This document shows, in pieces, positions 19,159 to 41,960 of a DNA stretch of 64,000 bases; position 1 is the stretch's first letter, and each line of letters starts with the position of its first letter. This DNA comes from Acetobacter lovaniensis (GTDB lineage Bacteria > Pseudomonadota > Alphaproteobacteria > Acetobacterales > Acetobacteraceae). The translations under genes were made by a program, and so were the position numbers. The notes beneath the pieces are model-generated. The model was not told where the DNA came from. It searched no databases and worked only from the letters and a program-made list of their open reading frames with translations. The DNA lies in NCBI RefSeq assembly GCF_014207635.1, contig NZ_JACHIE010000002.1, forward strand, positions 248,001 through 312,000. Direction: 5' to 3'.

Positions 19159-19986
19159 TCAGGCAGCTTCTTTTAGTTTCTGGGCGGGTGTGACCCCGCC
19201 GTTCCCCATGTTGGGTCTGTCATTGTTATATGTCCAGAGCCATTGTGTTGCGACTTCCTGCACGTCCTGAATGGTTTCAAACAGAGACTGCTCAAGCCAT
19301 TCCTGCCGGACAGTTCTGTTGTAGCGTTCGATATAAGCGTTCTGCTGCGGATGACCCGGTTGCGTATAGATCAGGGTAATCCCCTGCTTTTCCGCCCATG
19401 AAACCAACGTATGACTGACATATTCAAGGCCATTATCCATTCTGATAGCCGCTGGTCTGCCACGCCACTCCATAACCTGTTCCAGGCAGCGGACAACACG
19501 ACAGGCCGACAGGGAAAAATCAACCTCTATCGCCAGTCCTTCACGATTGAAGTCATCCAGAATGTTCAGGAGACGAAAAGCGCGGCCATCCAAAAGCCTG
19601 TCCGCCATAAAATCCATGGACCAGACCGTGTTGGGAAGGACCGGAACCGACAGCTTTTCAGGCTTTTCGCGAACCAGACGCCTGCGGGGTTTAATCCGCA
19701 GGTTAAGTTCCAGCTCCCGATAAATCCGATAAACCCGCTTATGGTTCCAGGGCTGTCCCTGCACATTACGTAGATACAGGAAACACAGGCCAAATCCCCA
19801 TCTTCTGTGAGCCTGTGTCAGTCCCGTCAGCAGATCGGCAATCCTGTCGTTCTCCTCAGCCGGTCGTGGACGATAGCGAAAGCAGGTCTCGGATATCTCA
19901 AAAATCCGACAGGCCAGCGCAATGCTGACCCCGTGATGCGCCACAGCCTGTGCGGCCAGTTCCCGGCGCTGGGCTGGCCGCTTCAT
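19159..19986 (-). CDS. IS3-family transposase OrfB (DDE integrase)
   Basis: This is the catalytic part of the IS3 transposase. The rve-type core shows the DDE triad: Asp in [13 protein letters not shown], Asp in [12 protein letters not shown], and Glu in [20 protein letters not shown]. An ATG at 19986 overlaps the orfA stop, and the same frame is open further upstream. The A7 run at 19986-19992 is a plausible -1 slippage site producing the OrfAB fusion. Length and motifs are intact, so the element may be active. Confidence 0.92.
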
Positions 19987-20246
19987 TTTTTTCCCAAAGC
20001 CTCCTTCAGGATATCCGTCTGCATGCTCAGATCCGCATACATCCGCTTCAGCCGACGGTTCTCCTCTTCCAGAGCCTTCATCTGACTGATCATTGACGCA
20101 TCCATGCCGCCATATTTCGCACGCCACCGGTAAAACGTGGCGTTGCTGATCCCATGCTCCCGGCACAGATCAGGAACAGAGACCCCGCCCTCAGCCTGGC
20201 GGATCACACCCATGATCTGGGCATCAGTAAAGCGATCACTCTTCAT
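19983..20246 (-). CDS. IS3-family transposase OrfA
   Basis: An 87-aa DNA-binding subunit with a helix-turn-helix ([40 protein letters not shown]) followed by a leucine-rich coiled segment ([19 protein letters not shown]). It ends in the A7 slippage run shared with orfB. The sequence belongs to the IS51/IS407-like OrfA type. Confidence 0.92.
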
Positions 20247-20315
20247 CAGAATCTCCTCATCCTTACGCTGAGAAAATTCTCATTCAAAAGCCACTCTTTT
20301 TATGGGGGGATTACC

Positions 20316-21038
20316 CTTGCCTTGCAATGCGGTGGATCGGATGGGTATTCGGGCATTACGGCAAACCCCGCTCTGGGGCATGCGGTCGATCTTCTGGTCG
20401 CACAGGGTGGTTCAGCCATTCTGACCGAAACTCCGGAAATTTATGGGGCGGAACACCTGTTAACCCGCAGGGCAGCACGGCGCGATATTGGCGAAAAACT
20501 CGTCAATATCATCCATGGATGGGAACAATACGCAGAGCGCGAACATGGCAGCATTGATAACAACCCCACCCCGGGCAACAAAAAAGGGGGGCTGACAACC
20601 ATATTGGAAAAATCTCTGGGTGCCGTCGCAAAAAGGGGTTCCACCGCGCTACAGGGTGTTTGCCAATATGCCGAACCCATTGATGCGCGTGGGTTATTGT
20701 TCATGGATGCCCCCGGATATGACCCAATGGGCGCCACGGGCCAGATTGCCTACGGGGCAAACCTGCTGGCGTTTACAACTGGCCGAGGCTCCTGTTTTGG
20801 ATCCCGCGTTGCACCTACGATCAAGATCGCAACAAACACCACCATGTATAACCGCATGCAGGATGATATGGACATCAACTGCGGGCGTATTCTGGATGGG
20901 CATTCCAGCGTGACGGACATGGGTGAAGAGATTTTCCGCTTCATTCTCCGCATGGCTTCAGGAGAGCACAGCAAGAGTGAAGCCCTCAATGTTGGTAACG
21001 AGGAAATGGTCCCATGGATGATCGGGGCCCAGATGTAA
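20316..21038 (+). pseudogene. UxaA/GarD-type dehydratase, C-terminal fragment cut by the IS
   Basis: Directly after the IS right end an open frame continues with LALQCGGSDGYSGITANPALG, a hallmark of the UxaA/GarD family (altronate or galactarate dehydratase). It carries on to a natural end at TAA 21036-21038. Only about 240 of the roughly 500 residues of the family remain; the N-terminal SAF domain and first part of the catalytic domain are absent. No matching 5' half is visible on the left of the IS, so it was probably deleted. The fragment has no start codon or ribosome binding site of its own. Confidence 0.85.
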
Positions 21039-21303: not shown

Positions 21304-22167
21304 TCAGGCACTGGCGCCCATACTGGCCCCTGCAAACCCTTCCTCCTGCTGCGCGGGATGGAGCAGTTTTTCCACCACTTCGGCGGCTACAAGAGCCGCT
21401 ATCACCTCGGGGCGTTTGTCCCGCACGCCCCTATCCCCTATGGGGCAGACCAGTGCCGCAAGCTGTTCTGGAGAAATCCCCACTTCTGAAAAGGATTTTT
21501 CAAACCGCAAGCGTTTTGTGCGCGAACCGATAAGCCCAACATAGGCCAGACCGGGCTGCAGGAGCGCTGCCTCCACAATCAGCGCGTCCAGTGTGTGTTC
21601 TGGCGTTAACACCAGAACACCCGCACCGGGCTCCGCCGTTGTCAGAACATCGTCCCACGCGGCGGTCACGCGTGCTTCCACGCCTTCGGGCACATGGCCA
21701 AACTCATGCGCGCGCGGGTCCACCCAGACCAGACGCAGCGGCAAAGGGGCCAGTGCGTAGGCCAGCGCACGCCCCACATGCCCCGCCCCAAACAAAAACA
21801 GGGTTGGGCGCCGGGCGTTCTGCTGGGCAAGTTGCTGTTCAAGCTGTGCACATAACGGAGCACTCAGCACTTCCAGCCTTACGGCCACGCGGCCACCACA
21901 GCACTGGCTGACATTACTCCCCCCCAGCACTATCTGGCGCTCGCACAGTGCCTCGCCCGACTGGAGCATGGCACGGGCATGCTGCTCGCACGCCAGTTCC
22001 AGCGCGCCGCCGCCAACCGTGCCCGCCACAACGTCCTGCCCGACCAGCATGAATGCTCCCTCCTCCCTTGGGGTGGAACCGCGGGTAAGCGTTACGCGCG
22101 CCACTACCAGAGGCTGAGGTGCCTGCCGCCAAAGACCAAGTAACTGCTTAGGTGTGTACCTGCGCAT
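21304..22167 (-). CDS. xdhC: Xanthine dehydrogenase accessory protein XdhC
   Basis: XdhC binds molybdenum cofactor, promotes its sulfuration and inserts it into xanthine dehydrogenase. I place the start at the ATG 22167 (MRRYTPKQLLGLWRQ), giving 287 aa and a 20-base overlap with xdhB; the open frame extends further upstream but only over xdhB. Typical blocks are VTLTRGSTPREEGAFMLVG, GTVGGGALE, the Cys pair of QCCGGRVAVRLE, and a C-terminal Rossmann-like LFLFGAGHVGRALA. It is the last gene of the xdhABC set. Confidence 0.92.
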   Translation of the reverse strand: MRRYTPKQLLGLWRQAPQPLVVARVTLTRGSTPREEGAFMLVGQDVVAGTVGGGALELACEQHARAMLQSGEALCERQIVLGGSNVSQCCGGRVAVRLEVLSAPLCAQLEQQLAQQNARRPTLFLFGAGHVGRALAYALAPLPLRLVWVDPRAHEFGHVPEGVEARVTAAWDDVLTTAEPGAGVLVLTPEHTLDALIVEAALLQPGLAYVGLIGSRTKRLRFEKSFSEVGISPEQLAALVCPIGDRGVRDKRPEVIAALVAAEVVEKLLHPAQQEEGFAGASMGASA

Positions 22168-24547
22168 GACCCACTCCACCTTGCTGGCGCAGGCGCTCGG
22201 CCACGCGCAAAATCTGTTCGGGCGTTGCCGGAGCATTCAGCCCCGGATAGGTGCGGTAGTTGTCCACACTGGCCAGCGCATCGGAAATGGCATGCAGCAC
22301 CGCCAGACCATGCACAAACGGTGGTTCCCCCACCGCTTTGGAGCGGAAGATGGTTTCCTCCCGGTTGGGCACGTTTTCCATGAGTTTAACATTAAAAATA
22401 CGTGGCCGGTCGGAACAGGCTGGAATCTTGTAGGTACTGGGCGCATGGGTGCGCAAACGCCCCGATGTATCCCAGAACAGTTCCTCCATGGTCAGCCAGC
22501 CCGCGCCCTGCACAAACCCGCCCTCGATCTGCCCTATATCAATATCCGGGTTAAGGGAGAGACCCGCATCGTGCAGGATGTCCACCCGCTCCATGCGGTT
22601 TTCCCCCGTAAGCAGGTCCACCACAACCTCCGCGCAGGCCGCACCGTAAGCAAAGTAATAAAACGGTCGGCCACGCCCTGTTGCACTATCCCATGAGATT
22701 TTGGGCGTTTTGTAAAACCCTGTGGAGGAGAGAGAAATACGGGCCATATACGCCGCATTGACCAGTGTGGCGAACGGCACCGTAGCCTCCCCCACCACCA
22801 CACCGTCGGCTGTAAAATGCACCTGTTCGGGGGAAACCTGCCATTTGGCAGCGGCAAAGTTTACAAGCCGATCCTTGATGGTGCGCACAGCTGCCAGCAC
22901 GGCCATGCCGTTCAGATCCGCACCACTGGACGCGGCGGTAGCAGAAGTATTGGGGACCTTGCCTGTCGTGGTGGCGGTAATGCGCACCCGCTCATGGGGT
23001 AGCCCGAACTCGCGCATGGCAATCTGCACCATTTTGGTATGCAGGCCCTGCCCCATTTCTGTCCCGCCATGGTTCACCTGCACCGAGCCATCGGTGTAAA
23101 CATGCACCAGTGCCCCAGCCTGGTTAAAATGCGTAGCGGTAAAGGAAATACCAAACTTGACCGGCGTTAACGCAATACCACGCCGCAGGTACCGGCTTGT
23201 CTTGTTAAACTCCCTGATCTGTGCGCGGCGTTTGCGGTAGTCGCAGTCCTGCGCAAGTTGGGTCATGACCTCCCCGGCAATGGAATCCTCCACGGTCATG
23301 TGGTACGGAGTGACGTTGCGTTCGGTCGTGCCATACACATTACGCAACCGCACATCCAGCGGGTCCAGCCCGGTGGCAAAGGCAATCTGCTCCATCATCC
23401 GTTCAGCCGCAGCAGCCCCCTGCGGGCCACCAAAACCGCGAAATGCCGTGTTGGACTGCGTGTTGGTGCGCAGCGGCACCGAGCGCAGGCGTACGTCCGG
23501 GTAGTAATAGGCGTTATCGGCATGGAACAGGGCGCGGTCCGTTACCGGGCCGGACAGGTCGGCCGACCAGCCACAGCGGGCAGCCAGCTCCATATCCACC
23601 CCCAGAACACGGCCCTGCGCATCAAAACCCACGTCATAATCAATCACAAAATCATGGCGCTTGCCCGTGATCATCATATCATCATCACGGTCAAGACGGA
23701 GTTTGGCAGGGCGGCCGGTGCGCGCGGCGGCAAGGGCTGCCAGACAGGCCACAATGTTGGCCTGAGTTTCCTTCCCGCCAAAACCACCGCCCATGCGCCG
23801 GACTTCCACGGTCACAAGGTTGTTGGGGCAACCCAGCACGTGGGCCACCATGTGCTGGGTTTCGGTCGGGTGCTGGGTGGAGGAACAGATACGCATTTCC
23901 CCGTCCTCTCCGGGCCAGGCCAGCGCGGCCTGCCCTTCGAGGTAAAAATGCTCCTGCCCGCCAATGGTCAGTTGGCCTGCAAGCCTGTGCGGGGCATTGG
24001 CCAGAGCCTGAGCGGCGTTACCCCGTGTCATTTCCAGCGAGCGGCAGACCAGTGCTCCCCCTTGTGCGCGGGCCTGCTCTATGTTCAGCACTGTGGGCAG
24101 GTCCTCGTACTCCACCCGTGCCAGCACTGCGGCCTGGCGGGCTGCATGGCGGGTTTGGGCCACCACGGCAAACAAGGGCTGACCACAGAAAAACACATGG
24201 TCTTCGGCCAGCAGGGGTTCGTCCCCCGCCCCCACGGAGCTGATCTGGTTATGGTGCGCTATATCGCGCGCGCTCAACACGCAAACCACACCGGGGTAAG
24301 CCTGCACCGGCCCCAGATCCATGCTGATGATGCGCGCATGGGCGCGGCTGCTCAGGCCAAGGGCAACATGCACCGCATTGGGCGGTGTTGGCATATCATC
24401 CACATACCGCGCCTCCCCCGCTACGTGCAGATGCGCGCTCTCATGCCTGAGCGAGGAAGACGCCGCACCGGCCACCTGTGCGGGACCATGAGGTGCCGGG
24501 CCTCCGGCTTCAGCCGGTTGTGCTGCCATGGTGTAGGGGTCAACCAT
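22148..24547 (-). CDS. xdhB: Xanthine dehydrogenase, molybdopterin-binding subunit
   Basis: The large subunit holds the Mo-pterin centre that hydroxylates hypoxanthine and xanthine to urate. The protein shows GGGFGGKETQ (first molybdopterin contact), FRGFGGPQGAAAAERMMEQI, the MGQGLHTKMVQIA block and the catalytic Glu in SKAVGEPPFVHGLAV. I use the ATG at 24547 (MVDPYTMAAQPAEAGG, 799 aa), which overlaps the xdhA stop by a few bases. The longer open frame to 24661 would overlap xdhA by 120 bases. Subunit order xdhA-xdhB-xdhC is the common bacterial one. Confidence 0.93.
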   Translation of the reverse strand: MVDPYTMAAQPAEAGGPAPHGPAQVAGAASSSLRHESAHLHVAGEARYVDDMPTPPNAVHVALGLSSRAHARIISMDLGPVQAYPGVVCVLSARDIAHHNQISSVGAGDEPLLAEDHVFFCGQPLFAVVAQTRHAARQAAVLARVEYEDLPTVLNIEQARAQGGALVCRSLEMTRGNAAQALANAPHRLAGQLTIGGQEHFYLEGQAALAWPGEDGEMRICSSTQHPTETQHMVAHVLGCPNNLVTVEVRRMGGGFGGKETQANIVACLAALAAARTGRPAKLRLDRDDDMMITGKRHDFVIDYDVGFDAQGRVLGVDMELAARCGWSADLSGPVTDRALFHADNAYYYPDVRLRSVPLRTNTQSNTAFRGFGGPQGAAAAERMMEQIAFATGLDPLDVRLRNVYGTTERNVTPYHMTVEDSIAGEVMTQLAQDCDYRKRRAQIREFNKTSRYLRRGIALTPVKFGISFTATHFNQAGALVHVYTDGSVQVNHGGTEMGQGLHTKMVQIAMREFGLPHERVRITATTTGKVPNTSATAASSGADLNGMAVLAAVRTIKDRLVNFAAAKWQVSPEQVHFTADGVVVGEATVPFATLVNAAYMARISLSSTGFYKTPKISWDSATGRGRPFYYFAYGAACAEVVVDLLTGENRMERVDILHDAGLSLNPDIDIGQIEGGFVQGAGWLTMEELFWDTSGRLRTHAPSTYKIPACSDRPRIFNVKLMENVPNREETIFRSKAVGEPPFVHGLAVLHAISDALASVDNYRTYPGLNAPATPEQILRVAERLRQQGGVGHAQVHT

Positions 24548-26045
24548 GCGCCACCTCCTGCCAGTTCTGTAGTGTTGGGGCGTGGTGCGGGGGGCTGTCC
24601 CTATCAGGCTCAAACAGGCGGACCAGCAGGTTGGCGGCAACCGTTGCACGGTACCACGCACTGGCGCGCATGTCTGACAGAGGGGTAAAATCCTCTTTTA
24701 TGGCCGCTTGCGCTGCAAGGAGTGTCACAGGGGTACGCGTCTGCCCCGTAAGAGCAGCCTCCGCCCGGCTGGCCCGGCAGGGTATGCCCGCCATGCCGCC
24801 ATAGGCCAGACGGGCCTGCTGTATGGTGCCATCCTCTGCCATAACCAGCACAAAGGCCCCCAGCACAGCAGAAATATCCTGATCAAACCGCTTGGAAACC
24901 TTGTACACTCCGCACACGCTCCCAGCAGGCAGCGGCGGAATAAGCACGCCTTCTATAAACTCGCCGGGGCGGATGTCCTGCTTGCCGTATTCGAGAAAAA
25001 ACGCTTCCAACGGCACAACCCTGCGTTCAGGCCCGCAGCGCAGGTGGAGTTGCGCCCCTGCGGCCATAAAAATGGGCGGGCCATCCCCAATCGGTGACGC
25101 ATTGCCGATATTGCCGCACACGGTGGCTGCATTGCGGACCTGCGTAGACCCGATACGCCGCAGCGTATCCGCAGCAGTTGGCAGATGCGCGACCAGATGG
25201 GGCATGGCCTCCGTATAGGTAACACCTGCTCCTATCCACAACGCGCCATCGGGGCGGGTGTGGATTTTGTGCAGGTCGCGGGCGGTACGCACGGCAATAA
25301 TATGGGGGAGCTGGCGCAATCTTTTGGTGACCCACAAGCCAACATCGGTCCCCCCTGCCACCAGCATGGCCGCGGGGTCCTGCGCATAGGCAGTGGCCAA
25401 TGCCTCCACCGTAGCAGGGAGTGTGACACGCCCCTGCGGGCTATGCAGTTCCACCGTTTTGCCATCCTGCAGGGCCTGTAGGCGCGCGCTCAGCTCCGCC
25501 GTGCGGGCACTTATGGGTTCACCATGCCGGGCGCAGTAGGCTGCGGCTTTTTTCATGGCGCGCACAATGGGGGCATACCCCGTGCAACGGCACAGATTGC
25601 CTGCCAGTGCCTCGTTTATAATCCGCTCACCATCCAGCGTGCCCTCAAGTGCCGCCAGATCCGCGCGCGTGGACAACGCAACCATGGACATGACAAACCC
25701 CGGTGTGCAGAACCCGCATTGCGATCCGTGCTCGTCCACCATGGCCTGCTGCACCGGGTGCAATGCACCATCGGGGCCACGCAGGTCCTCCACGGTCAAG
25801 AGCTGCGCGCCATCGAGCATCCACACCATGTGGATACAGGCATTCACCGCGCGCCATACCAGATGCCCCTGCTCCAGCCGCCCGACCAGAACGGTGCAGG
25901 CACCGCAATCCCCTTCGTTACAGCCTTCCTTGGTGCCGGTGCGGGCCTGCTGGTCGCGCAGCCAGTCCAGCAGGGTCAACTCCGGCGGCAGGCTGGACAG
26001 ATGGTGGAGGGTATCCCCCACATAAAAGCTGATGTGCTGGCGCAT
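24540..26045 (-). CDS. xdhA: Xanthine dehydrogenase, FeS/FAD subunit
   Basis: The small subunit carries two [2Fe-2S] clusters and FAD and passes electrons from the Mo centre to NAD+. The 501-aa protein has the plant-type ferredoxin ligands GCNEGDCGACTV (about residues 38-49), the second cluster in CGFCTPGFVMSMVAL and NLCRCTGYAPIV. The FAD domain begins near AGGTDVGLWVTKRLRQ and includes GNASPIGDGPP. It is the first of the three xdh genes, just downstream of the permease gene in the same direction, so uptake and oxidation of xanthine are likely co-expressed. Confidence 0.95.
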   Translation of the reverse strand: MRQHISFYVGDTLHHLSSLPPELTLLDWLRDQQARTGTKEGCNEGDCGACTVLVGRLEQGHLVWRAVNACIHMVWMLDGAQLLTVEDLRGPDGALHPVQQAMVDEHGSQCGFCTPGFVMSMVALSTRADLAALEGTLDGERIINEALAGNLCRCTGYAPIVRAMKKAAAYCARHGEPISARTAELSARLQALQDGKTVELHSPQGRVTLPATVEALATAYAQDPAAMLVAGGTDVGLWVTKRLRQLPHIIAVRTARDLHKIHTRPDGALWIGAGVTYTEAMPHLVAHLPTAADTLRRIGSTQVRNAATVCGNIGNASPIGDGPPIFMAAGAQLHLRCGPERRVVPLEAFFLEYGKQDIRPGEFIEGVLIPPLPAGSVCGVYKVSKRFDQDISAVLGAFVLVMAEDGTIQQARLAYGGMAGIPCRASRAEAALTGQTRTPVTLLAAQAAIKEDFTPLSDMRASAWYRATVAANLLVRLFEPDRDSPPHHAPTLQNWQEVAHG

Positions 26046-26107: not shown

Positions 26108-27568
26108 TTACTCGGTCTGGGCGCGGCCAGCCTGCCCAAGGGCCGCCTGAGGTTTGTCCTGCGCGCCCACAACGTTCCAGACCGGGGTTTCGAGTATGAC
26201 CGTATCCTGTTCCACCGTTTGCTCGGAGGAACACAGATTGCCAAAGTTGAACACCAGATGCAGCACAATGGCAGACAGGGCACCCAATGTAATACCGCTG
26301 CCAAAAATAACCTGCATCCATGCGGGAAAATGGTCAGCAATATGGGGCTGTGCTGTTGCCAGCATGCTCAGCCCGATGCTGGTGCCCACAATAACCGTGT
26401 TGTTCAGATTATCAAAATCCACTTTGACAAGGGTCTGAATCCCCACCACAGCCACGGCGGCAAACATGGCCAGTGCGGCCCCACCCAGTACCGGCAGGGG
26501 CACACTGGCAATAATGGCGGCAAGCTTGGGCAGGCAGCCAAGCCCCATCATGATAAACGCCGCCGCCACCACAACCCAGCGGCTGGTCACCCGTGTAAGC
26601 CGCACAAGGCCCACGTTCTCGGCTATGCAGGTGTAGGGAAAGGAGTTCAGCACCCCACCAATTATGGTTGCCAGACCATCCGCACGGATCGCCCGCGTGA
26701 TGTCGGCTGAGGAAATATCCTTTTTAACAATGGAGCCCGTGGCAAACACATCCCCCGTGGTTTCCAGCATGGTAATGATCATGACCACCAGCATGGACAG
26801 CACTGGCACCACATGGAAGGTAGGCATGCCAAAGTAAAAAGGCTGCGCAACGGTCACCCACGGGGCAAACAGCACGCCATCAAAACTGGCATCGCCCAGA
26901 AACCACGCGGTTAACGTGCCAGCCACCAGCCCGAACAGAACGGCAATGCTGGCCACAAACCCCTTGAACATACGCTGGATGAACAGGATGGAAACCAGCG
27001 TACCCAGACCATACGCCACATTGCGCATGTTAACCGGGTTTTGCATGACCCCGGTACCCTGCCCGTTAACAATATCATTCGCAGCCACCGGCAGCAGGGC
27101 CAGCCCGATAACCAGAATAACAGACCCCGTGACCACAGGCGGGAAAAACCTGACCAGCCTGCCAAACCACGGTGCCGCCAGAAAGGTAAAAATCCCCCCC
27201 GCAATGACCGCGCCAAAAATCTGGGGCAGCCCCTGCACGCCCCCACCTGCCGCCACGCCAATGGCGATCATGGGGGTAACGGCCACAAAGGTCACCCCCT
27301 GCAACAGCGGGAGCTTGACCCCGATATAACGCCCAAGCCCCGCGGACTGGATGAAGGAGGCAATGCCACAGGTAAACAGGTCCGCCTCGATCAGATGCTC
27401 AAGTGCGGCACGGGGCAGACCCATGGCACCCGCCAGCAGAACAGGCACAATAACGGCGGCCGCATAGAATGTGAGCACATGTTGTAGGCCATAGAAGCCA
27501 AGCTTCCAGACCGGGAGCATCTGGTCCACGGGGTGGACGGTCTGTGGCGTGTTGCTGGCAGGTTGCAT
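26108..27568 (-). CDS. NCS2-family uracil/xanthine permease
   Basis: This inner-membrane purine or pyrimidine importer has 486 aa and about 12-14 hydrophobic segments. The N-terminus (KLGFYGLQHVLTFYAAAVIV) and later LETTGDVFATG and SFPYTCIAENVGLVRLTRVT are NCS2 signature regions; the latter resembles QNVGV-type motifs of xanthine/urate carriers. It sits between hiuH and xdhA on the same strand, 3 bases after hiuH, so xanthine or urate is the likely substrate. Separation from uracil carriers is by context, not by a decisive residue. Confidence 0.9.
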   Translation of the reverse strand: MQPASNTPQTVHPVDQMLPVWKLGFYGLQHVLTFYAAAVIVPVLLAGAMGLPRAALEHLIEADLFTCGIASFIQSAGLGRYIGVKLPLLQGVTFVAVTPMIAIGVAAGGGVQGLPQIFGAVIAGGIFTFLAAPWFGRLVRFFPPVVTGSVILVIGLALLPVAANDIVNGQGTGVMQNPVNMRNVAYGLGTLVSILFIQRMFKGFVASIAVLFGLVAGTLTAWFLGDASFDGVLFAPWVTVAQPFYFGMPTFHVVPVLSMLVVMIITMLETTGDVFATGSIVKKDISSADITRAIRADGLATIIGGVLNSFPYTCIAENVGLVRLTRVTSRWVVVAAAFIMMGLGCLPKLAAIIASVPLPVLGGAALAMFAAVAVVGIQTLVKVDFDNLNNTVIVGTSIGLSMLATAQPHIADHFPAWMQVIFGSGITLGALSAIVLHLVFNFGNLCSSEQTVEQDTVILETPVWNVVGAQDKPQAALGQAGRAQTE

Positions 27569-27571
27569 GGC

Positions 27572-27904
27572 TTAACTCCCCCTGTAGGTCGAATAGGCGT
27601 ATGGGGCGACCAGCAGGGGCACATGGGCATGCCCGCTGCCGCCAAGACCAAAGCAGATTGGCACAATATCCAGAAACGGCGGGTCCGCCAGCGGTGTGCC
27701 CTGCTGGCGGAAGTAGGCCGCGACCTCAAATTCCAGGCAGTAGGCACCGGCTTCCAGCTCAAGCGCTTTTAGCTCCGGGCAGCGGCCATCGGCATCGGTC
27801 TGCCCTGCAAACAGAACGCCTGTGGCCCCACTCAGGCGCAACGCCACCCCCACCGCCGGACGGCCGGAAACCGTGTTGAGAACATGGGTTGAAAGAGAGC
27901 TCAT
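27572..27904 (-). CDS. hiuH: 5-hydroxyisourate hydrolase (transthyretin-like)
   Basis: This enzyme hydrolyses 5-hydroxyisourate, the unstable product of urate oxidation, to OHCU. The 110-aa protein begins LSTHVLNTVSGRPAVGV and ends with the diagnostic YRGS tetrapeptide of transthyretin-related HIU hydrolases. Its start overlaps the uraD stop by four bases. Presence of HiuH implies that urate is oxidised in this cell, although no known urate oxidase lies in the operon. Confidence 0.96.
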   Translation of the reverse strand: MSSLSTHVLNTVSGRPAVGVALRLSGATGVLFAGQTDADGRCPELKALELEAGAYCLEFEVAAYFRQQGTPLADPPFLDIVPICFGLGGSGHAHVPLLVAPYAYSTYRGS

Positions 27905-28449
27905 GCCACCACCTTATCGTGCAGACGTAATGCGGCTATTGCGTCAATCTGGCTCAAGGCCTCGGCCAGTTCGGCTTGGGGCGTACTGGCAAGCCGCTGT
28001 TCCATGGCTTGTGCAATAACCTGTTTGGCATGCCCGCCCACCTTGCGCACACAAATAACAAACGGCATGCCGAACTTGTGTGTGTACGCATCATTCAGGG
28101 CGCGAAAATGCGTGTATTCCTCAGGCGTTAACCGGTCCAGCCCTGCCCCGCCCTGCTCCTGTGCGGAGGCTGCGGTCAGCCCCGGGTCCACCCCCAGACG
28201 GTGCCCAAGCTCGGGGTGGGCACGCACAAGTGCATACTGTGCCGCCTCGGGCGCGGCACGCATGGCGGTGGAAAACGCCGCACACATGCCGCCAAGGTCT
28301 GCAAACGGGCGGCTTTTGGCTGCCTGCGCCGCAACCCATGGGGAATGTTCATACACACTCCCAAACGCCTCCACAAAAGCGGCATCGGACATGGCGTTGA
28401 CCTGCGCCAGAGTGAGCATGGCGGGGGCGGTCATGCCAGAGATGGTCAT
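27901..28449 (-). CDS. uraD: 2-oxo-4-hydroxy-4-carboxy-5-ureidoimidazoline (OHCU) decarboxylase
   Basis: This enzyme decarboxylates OHCU to S-allantoin. The start at 28449 gives an ATGA overlap with puuE and a 182-aa protein of family length. Signature blocks are VYEHSPWVAAQAA, RAHPELGHRLG with the catalytic His, AQEQGGAGLDRLTPEEYTHF, and KFGMPFVICVRK. It lies between puuE and hiuH with overlaps on both sides, so the three enzymes following urate oxidation are translationally coupled. Confidence 0.95.
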   Translation of the reverse strand: MTISGMTAPAMLTLAQVNAMSDAAFVEAFGSVYEHSPWVAAQAAKSRPFADLGGMCAAFSTAMRAAPEAAQYALVRAHPELGHRLGVDPGLTAASAQEQGGAGLDRLTPEEYTHFRALNDAYTHKFGMPFVICVRKVGGHAKQVIAQAMEQRLASTPQAELAEALSQIDAIAALRLHDKVVA

Positions 28450-29342
28450 GCCGGGTGCACCTTCTGCCAATGGCGGGCAATATCGGCCCGGGTTGCCACC
28501 CATACATCGGCATGGGCTGCCACATGCTCCAGAAAGCGGGCAACAGCCAGTGCCCGTCCGGGCTTGCCTGCCAGACGGCAGTGCAGGCCAACGGACATCA
28601 TACGCCCCCCTTCCTGATAGAGCATGTCAAACGTGTCGCGCAGGTAATGGAAGAACTGCTCGCCCTCGGTAAAGCCGTTCAGGGCGGCAAACTTCATGTC
28701 ATTCACATCCAGCGTGTACGGTACAATCAGTTGGGGTTTGCCGTAGCGCCGGTCGTAATAGGGCAGGTCATCGGCGTAGGAATCCGCATCATACAAAAAG
28801 CAGCCTTCCTCCACGACCAGACGGGCGGTATTGGGGCTGGTGCGGCCCTGATACCAGCCCAGCGGCGGAGCACCCGTAACCTGCGTGTGCAGGGCTATGG
28901 CCTCGCGCATATGGGCGCGCTCCACATCCTCTGGCACGTTCTGGTAATCTATCCAGCGCAGGCCGTGGGTTGCAATTTCCCACCCACTGGCCTGCATGGC
29001 GGCAACGGCTGCGGGGTTGCGGGCCAGCGCCATGGCAACACCAAAAACCGTAACGGGCAGGCCCGCTTTTGCAAACAGGCGGTAAAGCCGCCAGAAGCCG
29101 GCACGACTGCCGTATTCATACAGGCTTTCCATCTGCATGCAGCGCGCACCGACAATGGAGGACGTACCTACCATTTCGGACAAAAATGCCTCGGACCCGC
29201 GATCATTGTGCAGGACGCAGTTTTCCGCGCCCTCTTCGTAGTTGATCACAAACTGCACGGCTATACGCGCGCCACCGGGCCAGTGTGCATCGGGCGGGGT
29301 GGCGCCATAGCCGATCATGTCACGCGGGTATGTCTGGTTCAT
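28446..29342 (-). CDS. puuE: Allantoinase, PuuE type (polysaccharide-deacetylase fold)
   Basis: This cofactor-light allantoinase of the carbohydrate-esterase 4 fold hydrolyses allantoin to allantoate. At 298 aa the protein opens with YPRDMIGYGATPPDAHWPGG and has VQFVINYEEGAENC, the WEIATHGLRWIDYQ block and VPYTLDVNDMKF, all characteristic of PuuE. It is unrelated to the amidohydrolase-type allantoinases. It follows the FAD oxidoreductase gene by 28 bases on the same strand. Enzymes for allantoate breakdown are not in the window. Confidence 0.94.
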   Translation of the reverse strand: MNQTYPRDMIGYGATPPDAHWPGGARIAVQFVINYEEGAENCVLHNDRGSEAFLSEMVGTSSIVGARCMQMESLYEYGSRAGFWRLYRLFAKAGLPVTVFGVAMALARNPAAVAAMQASGWEIATHGLRWIDYQNVPEDVERAHMREAIALHTQVTGAPPLGWYQGRTSPNTARLVVEEGCFLYDADSYADDLPYYDRRYGKPQLIVPYTLDVNDMKFAALNGFTEGEQFFHYLRDTFDMLYQEGGRMMSVGLHCRLAGKPGRALAVARFLEHVAAHADVWVATRADIARHWQKVHPA

Positions 29343-29370: not shown

Positions 29371-30798
29371 TCAGGCCTGCTCTGGCGGCGGGTCAAAGCT
29401 GGTCAGTTCATCCACGTTATAATCCAGCAGGCTTTGCAGGTGCAGGGCTCCGTCCTCCACAAACAGGCTGCGGCCTATGCAGTTGGTCAGTTTTTCCACC
29501 CCGAAGCGCATCCCGCTAATGGTTGCCCCGGCAAGCCCCATGCTGGGCATGGCAGAGAACGTAAAGTTGTAGATGCACTGCATCATGGGGGCGAGCGGGT
29601 CATTGGCTTCCAGCGGCTGGAACTGGAAGGCGTTGCTCAGGTAAGGGTGGCTGCCCAGCAGGGCGCTCTGCTCATCTGCGGGGGCTTCAAACCGGTCTTT
29701 CCACAGGGCAACGCGGCTGGCGATGCGCCCCAGTTCGGCCCGCTTGGTCAGGTCGATAATAAAGCCTGTGCCAATAATCAGGAAGTCGAACTCCATCTCG
29801 CCTTTTGGTGTGGTCACGACCACGGCCCCGTTTTCCTCCCGCACGGCGGTCCAGGGGGTGCCGGGGTGATAGGCAAAGTTGGGGTGCTTGCGGCAACGCC
29901 AGAACGTATCCTGCGGGGGCGGCTGGTTCAGGTCATAAATCTTGTACATAAAGCGCCAGCGCAGCAGGTCCGGCAGATCGGCCAGATAGCTGAGAAAGCC
30001 TGCGTTTTCCATCCAGCGATAGGGATTGACTGTGGGGATCTGCTTGCGGCGCAGGCACAGGTCCACGCTGGCAGCGCCATGTTCCAGCACGGTTGCCGCG
30101 TTATCAAACGCCGAGGCACCAGCCCCCAGCACACCAATGCGCTTGCCGCGCAGGGCTTCAAAGTCAATCTGTTCACAGGTATGGGCATAACGGCTTTTGG
30201 GCAGCCCCTCGCGGATAAAGTCGGGGACATGCCACGCCCCACCGCCTTCTATGCCGGTCGCCAGAACCACACGGCGCGCCCAGACCACATGCTCGGCCCC
30301 ACCTGCGCCGGTAAAGGTCAGCCTGAGCAGCCCATCTTCCCACGCAATATCGGCCAGACGGTGTTCGTTTTTAACCGGCAGGTCCAGCACATCACGCAGC
30401 CAGAGCAGATAATCCTGCCAGTCCCGACGGGAAATCTTGTCCAGATCACGCCAGGCCTGCTCGCCGTATTTTGCCTCAAACCAGGATTGGGGGGTCAGGC
30501 TGGGAATACCAAAGTCCGGCCCGGTCACGTGCTTGGGCGTGCGCAGGGTGATCATGCGCGCAAAGGTAACCCACGGCCCTTCTTCCCCCTGTGGGGCCAT
30601 GTCAAAAATACAGGTGTTGGCCACGCCGCGCCGCCGCAGGCCAAAACATGTGGCAAGCCCGCCCTGCCCACCGCCAATAATGGCCACGTCCAGCACATCC
30701 TGTCCGTTATGCTGATGGGGAATGCACCAGTTGCCCGAGGCAAACTCAATTTTGGCAAGATCGTCCCGAACACGTCTGTTTAGCTGTTCCATACCCAT
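29371..30798 (-). CDS. FAD/NAD(P)-dependent oxidoreductase, candidate urate hydroxylase
   Basis: This 475-aa flavoprotein has two dinucleotide-binding motifs, GGGQGGLATCFG (about residues 41-52, FAD) and GVLGAGASAFDNAA (about 215, NAD(P)H), and LATGIEGGG between them. That is the layout of class B flavin monooxygenases and related SidA/IucD-like or potassium-transport-annotated flavoproteins. It is the first gene of the operon leading through puuE, uraD and hiuH to xdhABC. Known urate oxidases (cofactor-free uricase, PuuD, HpxO with a single Rossmann fold) are not visible. The position therefore suggests that this protein performs the urate to 5-hydroxyisourate step. That role is inference; a different oxidation is possible. 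Confidence 0.75.
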   Translation of the reverse strand: MGMEQLNRRVRDDLAKIEFASGNWCIPHQHNGQDVLDVAIIGGGQGGLATCFGLRRRGVANTCIFDMAPQGEEGPWVTFARMITLRTPKHVTGPDFGIPSLTPQSWFEAKYGEQAWRDLDKISRRDWQDYLLWLRDVLDLPVKNEHRLADIAWEDGLLRLTFTGAGGAEHVVWARRVVLATGIEGGGAWHVPDFIREGLPKSRYAHTCEQIDFEALRGKRIGVLGAGASAFDNAATVLEHGAASVDLCLRRKQIPTVNPYRWMENAGFLSYLADLPDLLRWRFMYKIYDLNQPPPQDTFWRCRKHPNFAYHPGTPWTAVREENGAVVVTTPKGEMEFDFLIIGTGFIIDLTKRAELGRIASRVALWKDRFEAPADEQSALLGSHPYLSNAFQFQPLEANDPLAPMMQCIYNFTFSAMPSMGLAGATISGMRFGVEKLTNCIGRSLFVEDGALHLQSLLDYNVDELTSFDPPPEQA

Positions 30799-30943: not shown

Positions 30944-31846
30944 ATGCCCGTTTTTTCCCGCTTCCTGCGGTATTTCATGGCCGTAGCCCAGCATGGCTCT
31001 ATTAGAAAAGCTTCGGACGAGTTGCATATTGCCGCATCCGCCATAGACCGGCAGGTGTTGCAGGGCGAAAAAATTCTGGGCACCCAGCTCTTTGAGCGCC
31101 TGCCATCGGGCCTGCGGCTGACCACGGCGGGGGAACTGCTCCTGACCTCCTGCCGCCGCTGGTCCCGCGACCTGAACGCCCTGCAAACCCAGCTGGATAA
31201 CCTTAAAGGCCTGCGGCAGGGGAGCACGGATATTCTTATCCCCGACGCGCTGACAAAGGGTTTTCTGCCCACCCTTCTGGGCAAGCTGCGCCAGACACAT
31301 CCGGGCATTATGGTGAGCGTGCATGTGCGCAAAAGCCACGATATGGGGGAACTGCTGGTTAAGGGTCACGCCGACTTCGCGCTCATGTTCAACCCCGGCC
31401 ACATGCGCGAATTAACAGTACGCACCCACAAGGAAATACCACTGGGCTTTGTCTGCCTGCCCTCGCACGAGATCGCGGAAATGACCGAAGCCCGCTTCAG
31501 CCTTGCAGCGGAATACCCCATGATCATCCCGGCCCCTCCGCTGGCCCTGTGGCGACCCATTGGGGTGCTGGAGGCGGAAACGGGGGTCAAGGTCGCAACC
31601 GTGGCCAAGGCCGACAATATCCAGATGATCAAATCCATGGTGCTGGAAGGCGCGGGAGTGGGGATTCTAAGCTATCTGGATGCGTATGATGAGGTGCAGA
31701 AAGGCCAGTTGGCCTTTACCCCCATTACCAACCGCAAGCTCCCCCCGCTGACACTGGCCCTGTGCGTGGACCGCTCGCGCCAGCTTTCCACCGCCGCGCG
31801 GTTTATTATTACCGAAATTGAAAACTTTTTTGCCGAACAGTTCTAA
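30944..31846 (+). CDS. LysR-family regulator of the purine cluster (probable)
   Basis: This 300-aa protein has a LysR winged helix in residues 4-62 (FLRYFMAVAQHGSIRKASDE, QLFERLPSGLRLTTAGELLL) and a substrate-binding effector domain. It is divergent from the FAD oxidoreductase-puuE-uraD-hiuH-xdh operon across 145 bases and followed 21 bases later by guaD. It therefore sits between both halves of the purine pathway and is the likely controller, with urate, xanthine or a downstream intermediate as effector (inference). Confidence 0.92.
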   Translation: MPVFSRFLRYFMAVAQHGSIRKASDELHIAASAIDRQVLQGEKILGTQLFERLPSGLRLTTAGELLLTSCRRWSRDLNALQTQLDNLKGLRQGSTDILIPDALTKGFLPTLLGKLRQTHPGIMVSVHVRKSHDMGELLVKGHADFALMFNPGHMRELTVRTHKEIPLGFVCLPSHEIAEMTEARFSLAAEYPMIIPAPPLALWRPIGVLEAETGVKVATVAKADNIQMIKSMVLEGAGVGILSYLDAYDEVQKGQLAFTPITNRKLPPLTLALCVDRSRQLSTAARFIITEIENFFAEQF

Positions 31847-31867: not shown

Positions 31868-33217
31868 ATGCCCCACACCCCGGACCGCCACGCCATAAGA
31901 GGCAGTTACGTTACCTTTTGCGCCAACCCCTTTACCACGCCCGATGCACTGGTGCTGGAAGAGGACGGGCTGATTATTATGGAACACGGGCGCATTACCC
32001 AATGCGGCCCCTACGCCACCCTGTCCCCCCTGCTGGGAGACAACACCCCCCTGACCCACTACCCCGATTGCCTGATCAGCGCGGGTTTTATAGATGCCCA
32101 TGTGCATTACCCCCAGATTTCGGCCATTGCCTCCTGGGGGGAGCAGCTTCTGCCGTGGCTGGAACAGTATATTTTCCCCACCGAGGCAGAATTTGCCGAT
32201 GTGGATGTCGCCCGACGGACGGCAAGGCTGTTTTTGTCCGAGCTGCTGCGTAACGGCACCACAACGGCCGCGGTGTACTGCACGGTGCACCCCCAGTCGG
32301 TCGATGCGTTTTTTGAGGAATCCGCCCGCCTTGGCACCCGCATGATCGCGGGCAAGGTGCTGATGGACCGCAACTGCCCCCCCAACCTGCAGGACACCGC
32401 CCAGAGCGGGTACGACCAGTCCGCCGCCCTTATTGCGCGCTGGCATGGCAGGGACCGCCAGCTTTATGCCGTAACCCCGCGCTTTGCCATAACCAGCACG
32501 CCAGAACAGCTTGAACTGGCGGGCACGTTATTCCAGCACACGCCGGGACTGTACATGCAGACCCATCTGGCCGAAAATCTGGACGAAATAGCCGCCGTGC
32601 GCAGCCTGTTCCCCAACCGCTCCTCCTATCTGGATGTGTACGCAAAAGCGGGGCTGGATGGGCCACGCGCCATATTTGGCCATGCCATTCACATGGCTGA
32701 GCATGACTTTGCCCACTGCCACCATTCAGGCTGTACGCTGGCCCATTGCCCGACCTCCAACCTGTTCCTCGGGAGCGGTGCCTTTGCCCTGTTTGACGCG
32801 CTCAAACCCACCCGCCCGGTGCACGTGGCACTGGGGACAGACGTTGGAGCAGGCACATCGCTCTCGCTGCTGGCCACAATGGGGGAGGCTTACAAGGTGT
32901 CACTCATGGCGGGGGATACCCGGCTTTCCGCAGCACAGGCACTCTGGCTGGCCACGGCGGGGGCTGCACGCGCCCTGCACCTGCACGACCATATTGGCCT
33001 GATAGCCCCCGGCATGGAGGCCGACCTCTGTGTTATGGACCCCGCCGCCACCCCACTTATGGCCCAGCGGAGTGCCCGCTGCACCAGTCTGGCCGAGCGC
33101 CTGTTTACCTTAATGGTTCTGGGCGATGACCGGGCCATACGCGCCACATGGGCCAATGGCCGACTGGTGCATGCACGGGCAGAGACGCAGGCGGATACAG
33201 CGGCGCATACGGGCTAG
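31868..33217 (+). CDS. guaD: Guanine deaminase
   Basis: This zinc amidohydrolase converts guanine to xanthine and ammonia, feeding XdhAB. The 449-aa protein shows LISAGFIDAHVHYPQI (HxH zinc ligands), YAVTPRFAITST, QTHLAENLDEIAAV, FGHAIHM and LGTDVGAGTSLSLLATM with the zinc-binding Asp, all guanine-deaminase signatures. It follows the LysR gene closely on the same strand. Its TAG stop overlaps the stop of the convergent GGT-family gene (33214-33216). Early regulator and deaminase in one unit fit a purine-responsive operon. Confidence 0.95.
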   Translation: MPHTPDRHAIRGSYVTFCANPFTTPDALVLEEDGLIIMEHGRITQCGPYATLSPLLGDNTPLTHYPDCLISAGFIDAHVHYPQISAIASWGEQLLPWLEQYIFPTEAEFADVDVARRTARLFLSELLRNGTTTAAVYCTVHPQSVDAFFEESARLGTRMIAGKVLMDRNCPPNLQDTAQSGYDQSAALIARWHGRDRQLYAVTPRFAITSTPEQLELAGTLFQHTPGLYMQTHLAENLDEIAAVRSLFPNRSSYLDVYAKAGLDGPRAIFGHAIHMAEHDFAHCHHSGCTLAHCPTSNLFLGSGAFALFDALKPTRPVHVALGTDVGAGTSLSLLATMGEAYKVSLMAGDTRLSAAQALWLATAGAARALHLHDHIGLIAPGMEADLCVMDPAATPLMAQRSARCTSLAERLFTLMVLGDDRAIRATWANGRLVHARAETQADTAAHTG

Positions 33218-34806
33218 TAAGCCCCCACGCACCCATCGCTCCGGGGGTCTGCCGCCCCTTCAAACAGGCCACTGGCATGGCGCACCACGGCCCCGGCGTG
33301 GCCCATCATGCTGGTAAAGGGGGCCACGCGCTCCACCTCGTGCCCGGCCTGCTCCAGCCGGGCGATAACCCCCGCATCAAACCGGCTCTCCATTTTGAGC
33401 GAATGGCTGTGGCTGCCCCATGTGCGCCCCAGCAGCCAGCGTGGCGCGGTAATGGCCTGCTGCAAGGGCACGCCAAACATGGCGTAGCGCGTAAACAGGG
33501 CGGCCTGCGTTTGCGGCTGCCCTTCGCCCCCCATGGTGCCATAAACCATGACCCGTCCATCATCAAACCGGGCCAGTGCGGGGTTAAGGGTGTGGAATGG
33601 CTTGCGGCCGGGCACAAAGGCATTCCATGCCCCTTCCTCCAGCAGGAAAGACGCGCCACGGTTCTGCCAGAGCAGCCCGGTCTGGGGCAGGAACACACCG
33701 GAGCCGAATTCAAAATACAGGCTCTGGATCATGCTGACTGCCACCCCGTGGGAGTCCACGGCCCCCATCCAGGTTGTGTCCCCCATCTGTGCCGGTGCGG
33801 GCCAGGGCATGGCACGGTGGGGATCTATGCTGGCTGCCATGGCGTTAAAGCGGGCCGTATCATCCAGAAAACCCTGTGCGTCCTCGCTCATCCAGCGCGG
33901 GTCGCCCACATGCGCGTTCCGAAACAGGAAGGCATGCTTGGTGGCCTCGACCAGCGCATGCACATAGGCAAAGCCATCCACCTCCTGCACGTTGAGTTTT
34001 TCAAACAGTTTGAGAATGGCGAGCGAGGCCACACCCTGAGTTGGCGGGGGAGCATTAAAAACCTGTGCGCCCGCCACACGGGCATGCAGGGGGGCTGGCG
34101 TTGCCACCGCGTGGTGGGCAAAGTCCTGCGCGCGCAGGGGGCTGCCAGCGTGGGTCAGGTCCGCCAGCAGCCTGCGGCCAACATCGCCAGTGTAAAAACT
34201 ATCCAGCCCGTGACGCACCAGACTTTGCAGGGTTTCGGCCAGTGCCGGGTTTTTGCGTATATCCCCCGCCTGCGGCAAGCACCCCTGTGGGGCATAGGCT
34301 GCGGCAAAAGCAGCATTGCCCAATAGTTCGACCTGTTTTTCCGCCAGCAGGGAGGCTTCACTCGTGGTCAGGGCGTAACCGTTCCGGGCGTACCAGATGG
34401 CATCTTCCAGCACCACGTCCAGCGGCAGGGCGGGCTGGAGTGCCGCACTGCGCTCAAGTGCCGCCTGCCAGCCCGAAACCGTGCCCGCCATGGTATTGGC
34501 CGCCATGCCCCCCCGCCAGGGTACGCTGGTATGGCCTGCGGCCGTGTAGTCCTGCGCACTGGCATGCAGGGCGGCGGCGCCACAGGCTTCCAGCACCTCG
34601 GTCCGGCCATCGGGGTAGGAGATCAGCCAGAACGCATCCCCCCCCATCCCGGTCATGTGCGGGTAAACCGCGCACAGGGTTGCGGCCATGGCGGTAACCG
34701 CCTCCAGCGCCGTGCCGCCTTTTTTAAGAATAGCCAGACCGCTCTGGCTGGCCAGATGATGCGGGGATGTGACCATCCCCCGGGTGGACTGAAAACTATG
34801 CAGCAT
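33214..34806 (-). CDS. GGT-family N-terminal nucleophile hydrolase, HpxW (oxamate amidohydrolase)-like
   Basis: A self-processing proenzyme of the gamma-glutamyltransferase family, about 530 aa from the ATG at 34806 (MLHSFQSTRGMVTSPHHLAS). Longer frames upstream overlap the divergent gene and read like non-coding. The nucleophile Thr lies in MGDTTWMGAVDSHGVAVS, which begins the small subunit. There is no signal peptide, unlike periplasmic GGT. The segment TLCAVYPHMTGMGGDAFW resembles HpxW, the oxamate amidohydrolase of Klebsiella purine degradation. With xdh, guaD and uraD next door, an HpxW role is more likely than glutathione breakdown, but this is inference. Confidence 0.82.
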   Translation of the reverse strand: MLHSFQSTRGMVTSPHHLASQSGLAILKKGGTALEAVTAMAATLCAVYPHMTGMGGDAFWLISYPDGRTEVLEACGAAALHASAQDYTAAGHTSVPWRGGMAANTMAGTVSGWQAALERSAALQPALPLDVVLEDAIWYARNGYALTTSEASLLAEKQVELLGNAAFAAAYAPQGCLPQAGDIRKNPALAETLQSLVRHGLDSFYTGDVGRRLLADLTHAGSPLRAQDFAHHAVATPAPLHARVAGAQVFNAPPPTQGVASLAILKLFEKLNVQEVDGFAYVHALVEATKHAFLFRNAHVGDPRWMSEDAQGFLDDTARFNAMAASIDPHRAMPWPAPAQMGDTTWMGAVDSHGVAVSMIQSLYFEFGSGVFLPQTGLLWQNRGASFLLEEGAWNAFVPGRKPFHTLNPALARFDDGRVMVYGTMGGEGQPQTQAALFTRYAMFGVPLQQAITAPRWLLGRTWGSHSHSLKMESRFDAGVIARLEQAGHEVERVAPFTSMMGHAGAVVRHASGLFEGAADPRSDGCVGAY

Positions 34807-35027
34807 GGTCTGGGCGGCTCCCGCTCTGGTATGGCCTGTATTGTACGCAGGATACCGCGCTTTTGCGCCATGCCCCATAAACAAAAAAAGCACACCCCCA
34901 TTGCCGGAGTGCGAGAGCCACCCGGCACTGGCCGCCCAAGCACCCCCTTGCCCACCTTTACGCCTGACAGCACACACAAAATCTGACAACCATACCACTT
35001 TGCCCACCACCAGCAGGACCCAACGCC

Positions 35028-35624
35028 ATGCCCCAGAACCATGCAGGCACCCGGCCAGAGCAAAGCACCACACCAGAACCGGCCGTGTACCTGGCCGGGC
35101 CGGGCGTTTTTGCGCTGGATGCCCGCGCACAGGGGGCACAACTGGTGGCGGCCTGCACGCGCGCGGGCCTGCGCGGCCTATACCCGCTGGATGCCGCACT
35201 CGACCCAAAGGTCCATGCTGGCCCCACGGCCCTTGCCGCAGCCATAGCCCGCACCAATATGGGCCTGATCCGCCAGAGCCGGGCTGTTATTGCCGATCTT
35301 TCCCCCTTCCGTGGCCCCAATGTGGATGATGGCACCGCGTTTGAAATAGGGTATGCCCACGCGCTCGGCCTGCCGGTTTTTGGCTATGCCAGCACCACCA
35401 CCCCCATGGCCGCCTACCCCGAACGCGTCCTGGCCAGCGGGGAGAGCATGAGCACGGTCATGCTGGACAACCGCACAACACTGGTGGATGCCCACAATAT
35501 GACAGTGGAAGATTTTGGCTTACCGGTGAACCTGATGATTGCAACGGTTCTGGCCGATTCCGGCACTGTTTTTTCCTCCGCCCAAGGGGCGATCATGGCC
35601 GCGGCGGCCCATCTGCTCACGTGA
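35028..35624 (+). CDS. Nucleoside 2-deoxyribosyltransferase family protein
   Basis: The family exchanges or hydrolyses the N-glycosidic bond of deoxynucleosides. The 198-aa protein has VYLAGPGVFALDA near the N-terminus and the active-site block DLSPFRGPNVDDGTAFEIGY with the catalytic Glu, followed by AHALGLPVFGYAS. Residues 1-17 are low-complexity. It is divergent from the GGT-family gene, 221 bases apart. At the edge of the purine island it would release free bases for guanine deaminase and xanthine dehydrogenase; this link is inferred from position. Confidence 0.88.
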   Translation: MPQNHAGTRPEQSTTPEPAVYLAGPGVFALDARAQGAQLVAACTRAGLRGLYPLDAALDPKVHAGPTALAAAIARTNMGLIRQSRAVIADLSPFRGPNVDDGTAFEIGYAHALGLPVFGYASTTTPMAAYPERVLASGESMSTVMLDNRTTLVDAHNMTVEDFGLPVNLMIATVLADSGTVFSSAQGAIMAAAAHLLT

Positions 35625-41498: not shown

Positions 41499-41960
41499 AT
41501 GCTGAGCCTGAACATAAACGGACAATCCCATCAGGTGGATGTCGATCCAGACACCCCCCTCCTGTGGGTTCTGCGCGATGTTCTGGGCATGAACGCCACC
41601 AAGTTCGGCTGCGGCATAGCCCAGTGCGGTGCCTGCACCGTGCATATGGATGGCCGGGCCGTGCGGGCGTGTAACCTGCCGGTGGGGCTGATCGGGGAGC
41701 AGCACATCAGCACGCTGGAAGGGCTGAACCCCGCAGACCCCGTAACCAAAGCCGTGCAGGATGCATGGGTGGCTCTGGATGTGGTACAGTGCGGTTACTG
41801 CCAGCCGGGGCAGATCATGGCGGCCATTGCACTCCTGCGTGCAGTCCCTCACCCCACGGATGAGCAGATAGACAGCGCCATGTCGGCCAATCTGTGCCGT
41901 TGCGGCACGTATGTGCGTATTCGCGCAGCCATTCACCATGCGGCGGGAGCACTGGCATGA
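41499..41960 (+). CDS. [2Fe-2S] subunit of a membrane-type molybdenum aldehyde dehydrogenase (AldS/IorA-like)
   Basis: This 153-aa electron-transfer subunit has four Cys ligands of a plant-type [2Fe-2S] cluster in [18 protein letters not shown] (about residues 40-57). The second cluster is in [16 protein letters not shown] and [15 protein letters not shown]. It is the first of three overlapping genes (small, large, cytochrome). In acetic acid bacteria such AldSLC sets oxidise aldehydes, chiefly acetaldehyde, at the outer face of the inner membrane. Isoquinoline 1-oxidoreductase uses the same architecture, so the substrate is inferred from the organism type. Confidence 0.9.

Follow-up and report, generated by a model that had tools for sequence, protein, structure and literature searches.

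A probable HpyO-type urate hydroxylase heads the purine operon of Acetobacter lovaniensis

The window, the 64,000-nucleotide stretch of contig NZ_JACHIE010000002.1 analysed here, carries a purine operon whose first gene encodes a flavoprotein. That this flavoprotein, below called the window protein, is the urate-oxidising enzyme of the operon is well supported by its gene context, its co-occurrence and its predicted fold, which all agree with what a preliminary description of this DNA had proposed for it. Judged from its sequence, the protein is most likely a divergent HpyO, a known kind of enzyme on a divergent branch, and the operon would therefore be complete and the finding largely ordinary. 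More specifically, we consider it very probable that the protein represents the Acetobacteraceae branch of HpyO, an enzyme of class B monooxygenase fold that hydroxylates urate at C5 with FAD and NAD(P)H. HpyO is a urate hydroxylase known from Xanthomonas (Michiel et al. 2012) and, in the available part of PMC4562309, is described as a member of another hydroxylase family that is not homologous to HpxO and that uses NAD(P)H and FAD.

The reading frame of the window protein begins with ATG and encodes 475 residues, and the two motifs named in the preliminary description were located in it, GGGQGGLA at residues 42-49 and GAGASAFD at residues 225-232. On the minus strand this gene comes first and is followed by puuE, uraD, hiuH, the permease, xdhA, xdhB and xdhC, while the LysR-family gene and the guanine deaminase gene are oriented opposite to the operon (Table 1). 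The products of puuE, uraD, hiuH, the permease gene and xdhA/B/C, and also the guanine deaminase, all score above curated NCBIfam cut-offs. The operon of xdhABC, purine permease, hiuH, uraD and puuE that had been read from the letters is confirmed. In the case of xdhB the TIGR02965 match begins at residue 69, the listed reading frame having an N-terminal extension. A LysR-family gene stands next to the homologue of the window protein in close relatives as well.

Table 1 Genes of the purine operon and its divergent neighbours in the window.
Feature	Coordinates	Strand	Evidence
HpyO-type FAD-dependent urate hydroxylase candidate, 475 aa	29371..30798	-	Pyr_redox_3/Lys_Orn_oxgnase; 43% to Xanthomonas gene; predicted class B monooxygenase fold
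puuE, allantoinase	28446..29342	-	TIGR03212 523.6 bits, cut-off 424.6
uraD, OHCU decarboxylase	27901..28503 (ORF as listed; true start may be internal)	-	TIGR03164 174.2 bits, cut-off 96.25; PF09349
hiuH, 5-hydroxyisourate hydrolase	27572..27904	-	TIGR02962 99.8 bits, cut-off 87.45
NCS2-family purine permease (model name: xanthine permease)	26108..27568	-	TIGR03173 482.9 bits, cut-off 414.15
xdhA, xanthine dehydrogenase small subunit	24540..26045	-	TIGR02963 594.3 bits, cut-off 467
xdhB, xanthine dehydrogenase molybdopterin subunit	22148..24661	-	TIGR02965 1295.3 bits, cut-off 849.5
xdhC, xanthine dehydrogenase accessory protein	21304..22236	-	TIGR02964 265.1 bits, cut-off 161.6
LysR-family regulator, divergent from operon	30944..31846	+	PF00126, PF03466
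Guanine deaminase	31868..33217	+	NF006679 603.4 bits, cut-off 351; TIGR02967 544, cut-off 375.4

The link to HpyO comes from the homologues. The window protein aligns over its full length with a protein of X. euvesicatoria (43.4% identity, 398 bits, 477 alignment columns), whose cluster, as judged by eye, also contains allantoate-amidohydrolase-like and aminotransferase-like reading frames. Because this homologue is the only flavoprotein among the reading frames listed in the X. euvesicatoria cluster (by eye), the Xanthomonas gene, which lies between uraD and hiuH, is taken to be the HpyO that was assayed in 2012. A profile whose first row was a protein from a metagenome-assembled genome (MAG) labelled Sulfuricella was scanned against the contigs of named genomes and found at least 550 relatives, the best 80 loci of which (L093-L172) were examined. 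In the stretches around these best 80 of at least 550 loci, hiuH was present at 38, uraD at 37 and puuE at 29, and all six Xanthomonas loci among them have the order puuE, uraD, homologue, hiuH. In sphingomonads, too, the homologue is flanked by uraD and hiuH, and in a Neobacillus locus the permease gene, uraD, the homologue and hiuH are consecutive. The remaining 42 of these best 80 loci (for example L096, L125 and L140), all Bacillota by title, had no hiuH or uraD match within up to 8 kb on each side; their group I proteins (see below) are 56-64% identical to Xanthomonas and 40 of the 42 have the complete five-residue string described below.

A class search gave a match at 1e-40 or better in 3 of 369 genomes, one of them the Sulfuricella MAG, in which xdhABC, puuE, uraD, the homologue and hiuH stand together. 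Of 398 genomes drawn across the phylum, 58 had a match, mostly weak and partial. The 15-20 kb stretches around 20 homologues from other taxonomic families (38-49% identical) contained no match to the HiuH, UraD, PuuE or Xdh of the window, which argues that the broad flavoprotein family has other roles. More distant relatives on plasmids are annotated, where annotated, as NAD(P)/FAD-dependent oxidoreductase, oxidoreductase or hypothetical protein; a homologue is also present on a Kozakia baliensis plasmid record.

Compared with HpyO, the window protein is homologous from end to end (43%) to the gene of the Xanthomonas cluster that is taken as HpyO and shares with it the puuE, uraD and hiuH partners, the two dinucleotide-binding motifs and a residue signature, but it lies on a separate deep branch, its activity is a prediction, and its gene heads the operon whereas the Xanthomonas gene lies between uraD and hiuH. 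The membrane cytochrome c urate oxidase PuuD and the cofactor-free Uox would act at the same step, but are unrelated proteins and both are absent from this genome.

Co-occurrence was tallied from the listed matches in a single set of 200 genomes of the order, which was searched for the window protein, HiuH, PuuD, Uox and UraD, and whose listed genomes all belong to the window's own family. HiuH was found in 142 genomes, UraD in 97, full-length or nearly full-length PuuD in 44 and Uox (PF01014) in one; four PuuD matches of 27.6-31.5 bits (cut-off 26.9) that cover less than a third of the model were dropped. For the window protein a threshold of 419 bits was set after the weakest hiuH-linked place had been seen at 419.3 bits. 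At or above this threshold the protein occurs in 98 genomes and hiuH in all 98 of them; conversely, 94 of the 98 hiuH-positive genomes that lack PuuD and Uox have the protein. At 580 bits or more, 79 genomes have the protein, all 79 of them with hiuH and none with PuuD (Fisher test within HiuH-bearing genomes, 6e-22, kinship uncorrected). Among the 150 places listed for the homologue, hiuH is found within 20 kb of 83, which all score 419.3 bits or more, while 17 places at 419 bits or more have no hiuH that near.

Full-length PuuD stands in for the window-type protein in this order (44 of 200 genomes) or, in four genomes, occurs alongside it. In these four (G117, G142, G188 and G197, one genus) PuuD is accompanied by a homologue that scores 434-453 bits and lies away from hiuH; they count against strict exclusion of PuuD and the homologue, and also against the HpyO assignment. 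In this Acetobacteraceae genus PuuD stands with hiuH and a signature-bearing homologue lies elsewhere (L078 and L080, from G142 and G188), where redundancy or another substrate is possible. The four hiuH-positive genomes with neither the protein nor PuuD or Uox are G024, G062, G093 and G104, in which HpxO above cut-off is likewise absent and in whose hiuH flanks no urate oxidase was recognised by eye (two of the six stretches, L177 and L178, being left out). In G062, UraD and HiuH are fused in one reading frame (L173:8162-9037) and a second HiuH reading frame lies on the other strand. Neither PuuD nor Uox turned up in G062, nor did HpxO above cut-off or a close homologue of the window protein, and this genome is the stronger candidate for one whose urate oxidase is missing.

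In a 64-row maximum-likelihood tree, all 28 hiuH-linked rows fall in one clade of 39 rows (bootstrap 95, SH-aLRT 86) and all 25 rows outside it are unlinked, the flanks behind these calls spanning ~1.5 kb in four rows and 8-10 kb in most of the remaining ones. Within the clade, a branch of 0.78 carries group I (100/100), which comprises Xanthomonas and relatives, sphingomonads, the Sulfuricella MAG, Bacillota and two Acetobacteraceae (L079 and L081). Group II (87/73) is the window's Acetobacteraceae group of 17 rows, including the unlinked L049 from another family, and is placed as the deep sister of group I, although trees that separate the two groups withstand the AU tests (p 0.093 and 0.111). 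The survival of these alternative groupings and the long branch (0.78) to the HpyO group speak for an independent recruitment, in which the Acetobacteraceae group would hydroxylate urate but would have acquired this activity separately from HpyO within the same broad FAD/NAD(P) oxidoreductase family. The identities lean the same way, as the mean identity of group II is 43.4% to group I and slightly higher, 44.2%, to the unlinked group N1 (up to 20 rows each), and the 43% identity of the window protein to the Xanthomonas protein, which like the AU result is a point against the HpyO assignment, is no higher than to some non-purine relatives. Percent identity was discarded as a criterion of HpyO membership, group II being equally far from groups I and N1.

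Against such a recruitment, groups I and II form a single clade (95/86), their operon partners are identical, and they have residues in common that other groups lack. In alignments of 82 (group I), 14 (group II, without L049, L078 and L080), 10 (N1) and 15 (N2) proteins, T87, T207, M263, E264, N291, Q292 and S428 reach at least 95% conservation in I as well as in II, and no unlinked group has them at more than 40%. These are the 7 columns particular to I and II at 95% conservation, where the other five pairings have 0-3 each; the excess depends on the threshold, shrinking to 8 against 1-7 at 90% and disappearing at 80% (8 against 4-10). The string T207-E264-N291-Q292-S428 is complete in 49 of 50 hiuH-linked proteins, the remaining one having TESQS, and in none of the 25 out-group proteins. 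It is also found in 47 of 75 unlinked proteins, all of which belong to groups I or II by the tree if included there and otherwise by identity, while the 28 unlinked proteins that lack it are the 25 out-group proteins, L049 and the Bacillota proteins L151 and L156 (S for T207). Taken together, we regard independent recruitment as unlikely, and we likewise give little credence to a parallel origin of urate 5-hydroxylation in Acetobacteraceae and Xanthomonas that arrived at the same conserved residues. The conserved residues are candidate urate-site positions for a family that has no close solved structure; that they bind urate is a guess based on the alignment.

The genome, which comprises 3.46 Mb in 57 contigs and is 99.99% complete, was surveyed for the known urate oxidases, and the preliminary description, which had seen none of them in the window and had called for a genome-wide search for uricase, PuuD and HpxO, agrees with the result. 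The uricase model PF01014 and the PuuD model PF06181 had no match in the genome, and the same searches were positive in two and one, respectively, of 14 named control genomes. None of the six matches to the HpxO model NF033623 in the genome reaches the cut-off of 500 bits, the best being 99.2 bits; here none of the 14 control genomes scored above the cut-off, and they provide no positive control. Two neighbouring FAD_binding_3 (PF01494) proteins on contig C18 are the HpxO candidates elsewhere in the genome, with matches of 99.2 and 68.3 bits, and were rejected. Their presence is what favours a reading in which the flavoprotein acts in another purine step or in an accessory oxidation, leaving urate to a different enzyme, for example a C18 PF01494 protein. 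We consider this very unlikely: both proteins are far under the HpxO cut-off, the purine proteins of the window have no match within ~1.5 kb of the pair, and the reading leaves unexplained both the co-occurrence and the fact that in other classes, and in Bacillota too, the homologue stands between uraD and hiuH.

By its domains the window protein belongs to a flavoprotein family other than that of HpxO; Pfam and the model predict folds that bind FAD and NAD(P)H. Pfam matches were Pyr_redox_3 (41.9 bits, cut-off 30), Lys_Orn_oxgnase (38.7, cut-off 21.3), Pyr_redox_2 (38.9, cut-off 26.1) and NAD_binding_9 (25.8, cut-off 21.8). FAD_binding_3 (PF01494), which we take to be the HpxO-type domain, is absent from it (Pfam, E up to 0.01). 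The AlphaFold2 model (mean pLDDT 85.2, pTM 0.86, 32 sequences) has as its nearest solved folds the ornithine hydroxylases PvdA, SidA and KtzI and small flavin-containing monooxygenases (4usr, 4c5o), with a Foldseek TM of 0.64 and, for PvdA, a Z score of 28.7 over 372 residues at 3.2 Å. Since the predicted fold is nearest to these enzymes, the earlier assignment as class B-like and not HpxO-like finds support. The resemblance is one of predicted fold, yet identity to PvdA, SidA, KtzI, 4usr and 4c5o is 13-20% in the rows listed; N-hydroxylating monooxygenases of the PvdA/SidA/KtzI type and flavin-containing monooxygenases act on siderophore or other substrates. Relative to the HpxO of Klebsiella, the window protein would catalyse the same reaction with the same cofactors, as far as the available part of PMC4562309 describes them, but belongs to a different family, without FAD_binding_3.

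The window protein had been put forward as a plausible new urate hydroxylase in an operon without any known kind of urate oxidase, a reading that overlooked HpyO. What favours a wholly new class without a described relative is that none of the 25 NCBIfam models listed (of 26 matched, E up to 1) reaches its cut-off and that no solved structure is close in sequence (best E 1.4e-4 with the protein as query, 4.5e-11 over part with a profile). EC 1.14.13.113, which we take to be FAD-dependent urate hydroxylase, has however already been applied within the acetic acid bacteria. Such a class is scarcely credible and was rejected, given the full-length Xanthomonas relative (43.4% identical) in a hiuH/uraD cluster, the description of HpyO in Xanthomonas in the available part of PMC4562309, and the annotation of the acetic acid bacterium Commensalibacter communis with that EC number and further enzymes of the route in the available part of PMC10149009. 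Among the papers on acetic acid bacteria that were consulted, as far as their text was available, PMC10149009 is the one that assigns this EC number to a family member.

For the HpyO assignment, gene content, homology, linkage, co-occurrence and predicted fold were computed here, and we infer reaction, cofactor and chemistry from the reports on HpyO together with what is well established about class B enzymes and about the pathway. The enzyme would be a single component with FAD and NAD(P)H in a class B monooxygenase fold, in which reduced FAD would activate O2 to a flavin hydroperoxide that would hydroxylate urate at C5, giving 5-hydroxyisourate and water. HiuH, UraD and PuuE would then carry the product via OHCU and S-allantoin to allantoate, with XdhAB making urate from xanthine and the permease importing purine. 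This assignment would close the apparent gap in the purine operon and proposes a function for a gene that is common in Acetobacteraceae and has no NCBIfam model over cut-off. In the available part of PMC11936674, uric acid loss was measured for an Acetobacter pasteurianus strain and urate breakdown by an Acetobacter strain was tied to fly fitness, and naming the enzyme of the urate step is useful for this reason. A point against the HpyO assignment is that a "uricase" gene has been reported in Gluconobacter genomes, the protein not being specified in the part of PMC8358223 available; in the 200 genomes of the order, PF01014 matched in one.

Some further features of the window lie around the operon. 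At 33214-35208 on the minus strand, a gamma-glutamyltranspeptidase-family gene adjoins the guanine deaminase gene, and its best solved relative is 5hft, presumably Klebsiella HpxW, the oxamate amidohydrolase of urate catabolism; its product may be an HpxW-like enzyme. HpxW is described in PMC5270733, as far as its available text goes. A reading frame similar to this gene, judged by eye, lies by the Neobacillus hiuH cluster (L149). At 19159-21038, beside the end of the purine operon, a transposase gene with an integrase core domain (minus strand) abuts a reading frame whose match to galactarate/altronate dehydratase is confined to the C-terminal domain, which suggests a gene truncated by insertion. 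Finally, a 2Fe-2S subunit, a molybdopterin subunit and a multi-domain cytochrome c are encoded in tandem at 41499-45477 on the plus strand, a trio that resembles a membrane-linked molybdenum aldehyde dehydrogenase.
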